Shown here: piece after piece, positions 37,446 through 41,695 of the stretch
Position numbering within the stretch: position 1 is the first letter of the stretch
How the letters are laid out: each line of letters opens with the position of its first letter
From: a virus
Length of the DNA: 46,247 bases
Strand: one strand, 5' to 3'
Virus record (IMG/VR): IMGVR_UViG_3300022934_002580
Span: 1-46,247 of that record
Notes under the pieces: generated by a model
Seen by the model: only the letters and a program-made list of their open reading frames with translations
Database searches by the model: none
Told to the model about the DNA's origin: nothing
Translations under genes and position numbers: made by a program

Positions 37446-37817
37446 TTACGGCAGCTCGGCAGCCCACCTGCCCGAGCGGTCAACGTGCCCGCACGCAGCG
37501 CACTGAACGTGCGGCGCAACCGACTGATGCCTCGACACAGTGACGAACGGGCCACCATGCGACCCGGCATCGACGCACAAGTTCGGGACGTCCAGGCTAC
37601 GACGCACCACCTCAGCGACGTCCTCCGGGCGATGCTCAGCCCGCAACCGCGCCACGTCGAGGTCCGGCATTGGTGGGCGCGGCGCAGCACCCGACGAGCC
37701 ATGCACCAGGCACCCGCAGATCGGCTGCCCGTTGCGTGCGGTGCGGATCGGTTGACCGCACACCACGCACGTTCGCTGCACCTCGGCTGACTCGTTGACT
37801 CTGCTGCGGTCATCCAT
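37446..37817 (-). CDS. Zinc-finger-like protein
   Basis: A 123-residue protein with CVVCGQPI near residue 17, CGC near 34, and CAACGHVDRSGRW near the C-terminus, so one or two zinc sites. No family recognised. ATG 37817 is preferred because GGAGG lies seven bases upstream, inside the end of the repeat-fibre gene. It is the last gene of the coat/fibre operon. Confidence 0.7.
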   Translation of the reverse strand: MDDRSRVNESAEVQRTCVVCGQPIRTARNGQPICGCLVHGSSGAAPRPPMPDLDVARLRAEHRPEDVAEVVRRSLDVPNLCVDAGSHGGPFVTVSRHQSVAPHVQCAACGHVDRSGRWAAELP

Positions 37818-40800: not shown

Positions 40801-41695
40801 CCCGTGGCACGTCGTCCGGTGGGGTATCGGCGCGATAGTCGACGTAGCTGGTCGAGGTGATGAGGTCGCTTTCGTCGAACCATTCGGCGGTGCGGCGCGA
40901 CGCGAACGTGGACGCATCCAGCAGCAAATATCGGACGTCGTACCAAACAGACGTGCCTGCCGACGCCGCGCAGTAATGGTTGAGTTTGTCGCCTGCCCCG
41001 AACGTCATACGACCGATGTGCTGCACGGGGTCGAAACCGTTCGACGCGTCATGGTTCTCGTGTTCGTCGGCTGCGCCTGCGTACTGTCCGTCAGTGTTTG
41101 AAAGGTAGGTGTAAGCGACACGGTCAGCGCCACCGCCCGTGCCGGTGCTCATCGAGCAAAGAACAATGAACTCTTTTTCGGGTCCGCTGCTGACCGGCGT
41201 CCATCCCGACCCGCCGTTCGCCAACTGCTGGTAGCTGTTCGAGTTTGTTGACAGGTTCCCCGATTCGGAGAAGTAGACGTCGCCTGGTTCTTTTTCGATG
41301 ACAAGGTGACGGACGTTGCGCCAGGACCCGGTGGTCGATACGCCACGCACCCGCCAGTCCCAGCCGACATAGTGCGTGCCTGACGACGCAGCCGTGTACT
41401 CATGCACAACCAAAAACGACCGGTAATATGTGCCGTCGACTGCTTGCTCACAAGCGAAGTCGGTGGTCGTGACGATGTCCTGCCCGACCGTCTGAGCGTT
41501 CGGGCCGACCTTGAGGCGCGACTCCAGCCGGGCAGCGTTCTCACCGGAGCTGCCCTCGAAGTACGAGATCACGAAATACGTGGTCCCGCTGCTGGCTGAG
41601 AACGACGTGTTGCTGGCAGCGAACGCAGACCAGGTGCCCGACGTGTTGGTGTTCGGCCCGATGACTTCGCTGACCGCTGTGACCGTGCGGGCCAT
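37817..41695 (-). CDS. Giant Thr/Asp/Ala-repeat fibre protein
   Basis: A 1292-residue protein. Residues 1 to about 410 are non-repetitive and beta-rich (VIGPNTNTSGTWSAFAASNT, HYVGWDWRVRGVSTTGSWRN), suggesting a virion-attachment or binding head. Residues of about 410-1240 consist of tandem units of roughly 18-21 residues built on xADTxTxxDxxxxA (for example ATDTATVTDTGDL, AADTSTLTEEAAA), around 40 by rough count. A 45-residue cap follows (VDATITDVGSAAATITCVG). Its place among virion genes suggests a fibre or head appendage. Thr makes up a large share, giving many potential O-glycosylation sites. No close family recognised. Confidence 0.8.
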   Translation of the reverse strand: MARTVTAVSEVIGPNTNTSGTWSAFAASNTSFSASSGTTYFVISYFEGSSGENAARLESRLKVGPNAQTVGQDIVTTTDFACEQAVDGTYYRSFLVVHEYTAASSGTHYVGWDWRVRGVSTTGSWRNVRHLVIEKEPGDVYFSESGNLSTNSNSYQQLANGGSGWTPVSSGPEKEFIVLCSMSTGTGGGADRVAYTYLSNTDGQYAGAADEHENHDASNGFDPVQHIGRMTFGAGDKLNHYCAASAGTSVWYDVRYLLLDASTFASRRTAEWFDESDLITSTSYVDYRADTPPDDVPRAVDAGPLAATGKYLLLGRWNTGGNSTAKHAITKTTFGSGNWSQSGTAEHPLSTVSGTTAFASQATCNISFKSGTTNVEESALWLRSEVGQFVLFTDGDSAVGQTAQMFVLYLDTDDADATDATTLGESASVVVVQSITAVDSGTLAESATVEEQTVAVEKNAADSFTVADVAAAAAAVAASDTSTVAEAVTVAQAAAVAATDAASAAEVTAAAAAVAATDTAAAAEAVTLSEVASLVAVDTATLAEAGAVTEALTVTASDTGTVADSAQLAIAATVTDTGTVADAGSVAEDRAVTATDTATAGEVGSIVEDRTLAAADTATVVDVNDGIAVTATDTSTVAETAAAAAALSATDSHTVAEAATVAVGIAVTAVDTVTMTDSGGQLAIAATVTDTGSVGEAAAAAAALQADDTSTASDTGDLAEALLVTATDTATVTDTGDLDAVRSLTATDTGSLLSTAQIAVVADVMDSVTVTDTGTVAETRDVEASDTVTFSATASAAAALIGADTGTLTSAGSAAAALTASDTGTATDQAAAAAALDATDTGTGTDTSLDVALAASDTASVDAVTQAAAAIVAADTATTTDTGTVTETRSIDATDTVLLVDVTVAAAAALDATDTHTLGDAAAAAAVLDATDSGTLTDTGDADEGFRIDAFDLFTFTGDAVFQGVRTVDSFDTATVAEAVAAAAALDATDTGTGTDTGTVSEQLAVEAVDVATVTDSGDLDAVRTVTAADTLTVIDVTVTAVAAAAATDTSTLASTASAAADLAADDTGTADDTGTLVRVKQIQAADATTLGEQAAAAAAVIAADTSTLTEEAAAPAQLAATDTGTLADAAIIAEADQIAAADQAAVADTAALAEADRIEATDSAVLADVGTVGESLLVVAADTGTMTAAAAAAADAASTDTGTTVDVNDGIALSAADLLTVTDTASNALDVVAVDSVTVGEVSNVDRRVANPRGTVDATITDVGSAAATITCVGDSSLTVSNVGSASAEVL
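37990..40470 (-). repeat. In-frame tandem coding repeats of the fibre gene
   Basis: About 2.5 kb of imperfect direct repeats with units near 54-63 bases, dominated by minus-strand GCN-GAC-ACN codons. They create long open frames on the opposite strand that are not genes. Such repeats can expand or contract by recombination. Confidence 0.8.

Follow-up and report, generated by a model that had tools for sequence, protein, structure and literature searches.

Virion glycosylation has been described in mycobacteriophages, the targets of the phage glycosyltransferases being capsid and tail tube proteins; the part of that account available here names no Thr-repeat fibre (PMC12363180). The glycosylated mycobacteriophages (e.g., Che8, Corndog and Myrna) resemble the virus described here in that phage sugar genes occur in tailed phages of actinobacteria, although for the present virus an actinobacterial host is only suggested, by a WhiB gene and by its relatives. 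Proteins with the same type of repeat as the one studied here are annotated as hypothetical in Rhodococcus phages: Madraxi gp8, Jflix2 gp6 and REQ1 Orf64 (BLASTP E 1e-6 to 0.005), each with a homologue of phrog_23653 nearby. These proteins are shorter (565-727 aa), have different N-terminal domains and possess a common C-terminus that is absent from our protein. Furthermore, their genes lie ahead of the terminase and portal genes, whereas the gene studied here follows the capsid gene. A tail protein is placed near the left genome end of Rhodococcus cluster CF phages in the part of the report available (PMC13313380).

The stalk gene and its setting

The window, i.e., the whole stretch of DNA analysed, is the 46,247-base record of an uncultured virus, in which the minus strand carries the genes that a siphovirus-type phage needs for its capsid, tail, terminase and lysis. 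The gene of interest, referred to as the stalk gene after the putative role of its product, and the structural genes around it are as follows.

13270-14994, minus strand: J-like hub
17165-20029, minus strand: tape measure protein; main tail module, distant from the stalk gene
21066-21806, minus strand: major tail protein
27200-28168, minus strand: endolysin
29833-31284, minus strand: terminase
37817-41695, minus strand: giant repeat protein (putative stalk), 1292 aa, ATG start (ORF call and repeat parse)
37820-37945, minus strand: its C-terminal 42 residues, non-repeat, identical in the near-identical phage L001
37946-40453, minus strand: its repeat region, residues 415-1250, with 44 tandem units that measure 17-20 aa except for one of 23
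40463-41695, minus strand: its N-terminal region, residues 1-411, unclassified
41711-42094, minus strand: ORF of 127 aa between the phrog_23653 gene and the stalk gene, no family in Pfam or PHROGs
42096-42836, minus strand: phrog_23653 protein, conserved neighbour of the repeat family (PHROGs E 9.6e-32)
43164-43607, minus strand: SAP-domain protein (PF02037, E 1.3e-7)
43622-44584, minus strand: major capsid protein (phrog_1005, E 8.1e-75)

The stalk gene thus lies in the head module, apart from the tape measure and hub genes, with four ORFs between it and the capsid gene. It starts 15 bases past the ORF at 41711-42094 and its stop overlaps the following ORF by 4 bases, a spacing as in an operon.

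The near-identical phage L001 shares 98.9% DNA identity with the window over 8,893 bases, and its stalk protein is of equal length with no indel. The 52 substitutions between the two copies give a dN/dS of approximately 0.34 for the whole protein, with 0.24 for residues 1-410 and 0.42 for the repeats. This ratio indicates purifying selection, and the stalk ORF is therefore a coding gene; an ORF artefact is ruled out by the repeats, where the value stays below 1. By itself, comparison with the antisense strand is not informative, since two antisense ORFs differ in dN/dS (approximately 1.7 for 38264-39754 and 0.44 for 39216-39998).

The protein itself had no match in Pfam or PHROGs at E<=1, and hence no recognised tail or virion domain by those searches; such domains were found only in its relatives. 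A tblastn search of 50,697 phage records returned no match, and the single phmmer match in the PDB (9e5c, E 2.2e-6) was taken as low-complexity similarity. Every Trp and Tyr of the protein, and all Cys except one, lie in N-terminal residues 1-411, and an AlphaFold2 model of residues 1-480 was too poor for use (pLDDT 34). Three tandem domains seen by eye in this N-terminal region were unsupported by pairwise comparison (z 3.0 for the first and third, 0.5 for the first and second, and about 0 for the second and third).

Repeat architecture, relatives and fold

The initial annotation described a tract of about 830 residues made of short DTxT units, rich in Thr, Asp and Ala, poor in aromatic residues and Cys, and encoded by imperfect DNA repeats. 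The protein-level description was confirmed: residues 415-1250 (836 aa) are 44 consecutive units without interruption, spaced by 20 aa (19 times), 18 aa (17), 17 aa (3), 19 aa (3) and 23 aa (1), and the parse has a chain score of 797, whereas 100 shuffles averaged 5.7 and never exceeded 14.8. The unit consensus is [VLI]-x-A-T-D-T-[GA]-T-[VL]-[AT]-[DE], followed by small residues. The Asp at position 5 occurs in 44 of 44 units, a count that is partly circular because the parse was seeded on that residue, and Asp or Glu stands at position 11 in 37 of 44. The composition is Ala 28%, Thr 18%, Asp 12%, Val 12% and Ser 6%, with eight Phe residues and no Trp, Tyr or Cys.

At the DNA level the description held only in part. 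Tandem Repeats Finder reported one 40-base array within the stalk gene, and no exact 24-mer is repeated in it. The unit cores share 56.0% DNA identity versus 54.7% after synonymous codon shuffling, a value reached by none of 200 shuffles; this slight excess is a faint trace of old tandem duplication, the DNA repeats having nearly decayed. Recent repeat expansion is ruled out by the equal length in the near-identical phage and the lack of exact 24-mer repeats.

Because the stalk protein itself gave no database match, the neighbouring phrog_23653 gene provided the route to relatives of the repeat. A search with an alignment of this neighbour found 462 viral loci, of which 80 were retained, and one with a closer alignment found 36 loci in genomes of bacteria and archaea. 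At least three loci are common to both sets, as L081/L151, L083/L154 and L086/L152 look like the same sequences. A repeat profile was built from the window's units and then iterated, and identified 28 proteins at E<1e-3, whereas a shuffled set gave no match. Its match in L070, to the near-identical copy of the protein from which the profile was built, had an E of 2.5e-27. When loci were scored as positive at E<0.01 and two or more units, a repeat ORF was present at 29 of the 80 viral loci (near-identical phage included) and at 16 of the 36 genome loci. In all 45 the repeat ORF lay on the strand of the phrog_23653 gene and in none antisense to it, upstream in two and downstream in the others; in the window the two genes likewise share a strand, with one ORF between them.

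Repeat number varies widely among these relatives. The near-identical copy has 32 profile units, the next highest protein has 14, and the other relatives range from 2 upwards. Genome loci of Nonomuraea, Microbispora, Saccharopolyspora, Nocardia, Nocardioides and Williamsia carry repeat ORFs with the same profile and strand arrangement as the window, but with 2-14 profile units compared with the 32. Several of these actinobacterial ORFs terminate in repeated copies of an RxWxA motif, a possible anchor that is missing from the window protein; the repeat proteins observed with such an RxWxA-like end are at L150, L152, L083, L085-L087 and L103. Relatives of phrog_23653 were also noted on two contigs assigned to archaea (L166 and L176; Candidatus Methanodesulfokora and a Thermoprotei MAG). 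A separate pattern scan returned 52 stretches, 13 of which were judged in full and the others by spacing alone. By eye, L015, L030, L040 and L056 hold the same repeat type, in addition to L045, which comes from the contig of the near-identical phage; many of the other stretches were collagen-like or different repeats. No paper on this repeat was found in the open-access library searched with the terms used. The repeat, which neither Pfam nor PHROGs recognises, is a modular and probably stalk-forming element found again next to phrog_23653 in phages and prophages of several genera of actinobacteria and of other groups.

Fusions in the relatives bear on its function. At L113 (10430-13537), a single uninterrupted ORF encodes the repeat followed by a minor tail protein (phrog_1885, E 1.1e-52). 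The N-terminus of REQ1 Orf64 is a Gly-rich domain matching tail-fibre PHROGs, that of Madraxi gp8 is a domain known from virion-structural as well as tail proteins, and the L077 repeat protein starts with a lectin-like Laminin_G_3 domain. In L015 and L030 a PhoD-like phosphatase domain was recognised by eye. These fusions to tail or lectin-like domains make the stalk of a virion fibre the best interpretation of the repeat, in line with the earlier proposal of a fibre or spacer. Judged by eye, portal-like and MuF-like ORFs come next at L150 and L152, both from Nonomuraea. Given this proximity and the location of the stalk gene in the head module, a head fibre and a tail fibre are both possible.

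The fold was modelled with AlphaFold2 from a hand-assembled alignment of 32 repeat windows from several phages. The model is all-beta with approximately two strands per unit (mean pLDDT 61, pTM 0.51), and Foldseek found no PDB match with E<=1. In VIA-align, where Z runs high for repeats, the best match was the HxuA secretion domain (4i84; Z 14.3, rmsd 2.8, 189 residues aligned), with Awp1 (7o9q), Cthe_2159 (4phb), LpxD and SufB among the following rows, all of which we take to be beta-helical proteins. The HxuA domain, Cthe_2159 and Awp1 share the overall shape of the low-confidence model, but their Foldseek E values exceed 1, their identity to the window protein is 10-11% and their functions are unrelated. 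The best match of a BFVD fold search had an E of 0.021, among unnamed phage proteins. The suggestion of a beta-solenoid is consistent with the general shape of the prediction and stays tentative at this confidence and at Foldseek E>1.

Independently of the model, a regular pattern was apparent in 289 repeat domains from 39 other proteins, where two kinds of position alternate strictly, residue by residue. The first kind is occupied by small, aliphatic or acidic residues and includes the near-invariant Asp and, six residues away, Asp/Glu; at the second, Ser, Thr or Ala predominate. To judge by this pattern, the threonines look structural and not specific to sugars, and the alternation can explain the Thr richness without sugars. 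The acidic positions fall on the presumed interior side, and a simple solenoid does not account for them.

Taken together, the stalk gene probably encodes a virion fibre in which the 44-unit acidic repeat is a rigid, beta-solenoid-like stalk holding the N-terminal domain off, or to, the particle. Each unit of 17-20 aa would contribute about two beta strands; every second residue is small or aliphatic, two near-invariant acidic positions recur at a distance of six residues, and the Ser, Thr and Ala between them would point outward. The reach of the fibre would be set by repeat number, and other phages would use the same stalk with fewer units and different head domains. If so, hypothetical proteins with this repeat can be annotated as likely fibres, and fibre lengths can be compared among them.

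Nonulosonic acid genes and the A7 family

The initial annotation had also proposed the Thr-rich tract as a glycan acceptor, given that the phage encodes sugar-synthesis genes. Such genes are indeed present, together with a candidate transferase three genes downstream of the stalk gene.

1357-2394, minus strand: NeuB-type nonulosonic acid synthase with SAF domain (PF03102, E 2.7e-52)
2378-4183, minus strand: fusion of a CMP-sugar transferase-like (PseF/NeuA) domain (PF02348, E 5.8e-5) and a PseG-like domain (TIGR03590, E 3e-15, below its cut-off)
7101-8006, minus strand: nucleotide-sugar epimerase/dehydratase (PF01370, E 5.4e-38)
36049-36969, minus strand: A7-family protein, weakly GT42-like by sequence comparison, candidate transferase

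The NeuB and SAF domains score 178.1 and 32.4 bits (Pfam cut-offs 22.1 and 21, respectively), and the NeuB protein aligns along solved synthases. Its exact sugar cannot be named, since the score is below both NCBIfam equivalog cut-offs. By tblastn NeuB was matched in only three phage records, and the PseF/PseG-like fusion had no match in the 50,697 phage records.

The A7 family was aligned from 28 of 65 available sequences, with L197 excluded due to a stop codon. The best PDB matches of the A7 protein are all to the GT42 alpha-2,3/8-sialyltransferase, at E values (0.57-0.82) below significance. Its profile scored 28.5 (P 0.002) against one GT42-type sequence in hhalign, where 80 decoys reached at most 25.1. 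Across the 28 members, 20 weak Pfam families appeared, none of them common to more than two members, and no Pfam glycosyltransferase was found among the 19 window ORFs scanned.

The distribution of A7 follows that of NeuB. NeuB occurs on 16 of 41 viral records with A7 versus 4 of 89 unselected records (Fisher 1.6e-6); the 41 records derive from 64 A7 loci after those under 8 kb were dropped, and three bacterial genomes stand outside this count. Conversely, A7 occurs in 11 of 47 NeuB-selected records versus 1 of 85 NeuB-negative ones (Fisher 4.4e-5), the former being records longer than 20 kb from 80 loci among the matches listed, with one record already in the A7 set excluded. In 45 repeat or phrog_23653 records (43 of the 80 phrog_23653 loci, chosen mainly by record size, plus L015 and L030), NeuB and A7 occur in exactly the same three. 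In a second set, 44 of the 52 pattern-scan records, NeuB is in one record and A7 in a different one. The records in these Fisher tests are fragmentary and some are related to each other; within the set of 89 unselected records, p becomes approximately 0.002 instead of 1.4e-4 when L084 and L092, related phages from one sample, are counted as one. The A7 family thus tracks NeuB across phages and, from its faint GT42 likeness, is a candidate transferase. No paper on a phage nonulosonate transferase was found in the open-access library searched with the terms used.

These genes allow a specific version of the acceptor proposal, in which the Thr-rich repeat would bear O-linked glycans; the sugar may be a nonulosonic acid that NeuB and the PseF/PseG-like enzymes synthesise and the A7 protein attaches. 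The presence of both biosynthetic genes, the co-occurrence of A7 with NeuB, the GT42 likeness of A7 and the predicted outward orientation of the Ser/Thr positions are consistent with it, but evidence from the repeat family and from the A7 loci points elsewhere. The Ser+Thr fraction of the repeat is 0.246 in the near-identical copy, whereas 43 other repeat ORFs, which are not known to go with NeuB or other sugar genes, average 0.262; there is no enrichment over these relatives. NeuB is absent from 42 of the 45 repeat or phrog_23653 records. The repeat profile matched none of the 64 A7 loci, which, except for L071, span at most 6 kb on each side. The A7 gene is less than 1 kb downstream of a capsid gene in L187, L188, L189, L192 and L193, and at L071 the order is PseF/PseG-like, NeuB, decoration-like, capsid, SAP, a homologue of the ORF at 42776-43183, A7 and phrog_23653. 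As A7 in relatives frequently follows closely on the capsid gene, the capsid or proteins associated with it would be at least as likely a target as the stalk if the virion is decorated; the targets named for mycobacteriophages are also capsid and tail tube proteins. The sub-threshold GT42 likeness and the lack of a Pfam glycosyltransferase among the ORFs scanned count against it as well. O-glycosylation of the repeat by this route is therefore unlikely, and the proposal that the stalk is the particular acceptor was not supported. The stalk is a possible acceptor but not a favoured one, and what is more unexpected here is the set of linked sugar genes.

A broader but rather doubtful proposal is that NeuB and the PseF/PseG-like fusion may produce a CMP-activated sialic-acid-like sugar that the A7 protein, as a new GT42-like phage transferase family, would put on the virion, including the Thr ladder of the putative 44-coil stalk. 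If true, the phage would encode its own nonulosonic acid coat, and the same transferase family would recur in diverse NeuB-carrying phages. A candidate transferase family that tracks NeuB makes sialic-acid-like sugars on phages directly testable.

Other possible conformations of the repeat

A spacer lacking a regular fold (disordered, mucin-like or elastic) would also suit a low-complexity, Ala/Thr/Asp-rich protein with a pI of approximately 4.05, and the AlphaFold2 confidence is only moderate. However, the strict alternation and near-invariant acidic positions across the 289 domains, the regular strands of the all-beta model and the near absence of Pro (one residue in the window's repeat) argue against this, and we regard such a spacer as distinctly unlikely.

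RTX-type beta-rolls have a period close to the 17-20 aa of these units, and a cation-dependent variant, in which the acidic ladders (positions 5 and 11) would bind Ca2+ between coils and the stalk would stiffen only with the ion, or one in which the Thr ladder would bind a flat surface such as ice, is very improbable, given no Pfam match, no Gly-rich RTX-type nonapeptide seen by eye and an ice-binding protein (5uyt) only in the last VIA-align row (Z 4.3).

Outside the stalk region, positions 1-900 of the window hold an array of 15-base units, which by eye encodes a pentapeptide-like protein on the minus strand. A similar array, differently placed, opens record L002; circular closure of the genome was not established from L002 and the window ends, as the pentapeptide-repeat matches were out of order. 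Finally, an asparagine-synthase-like amidotransferase (phrog_16728) is encoded at 32498-34024 on the minus strand.
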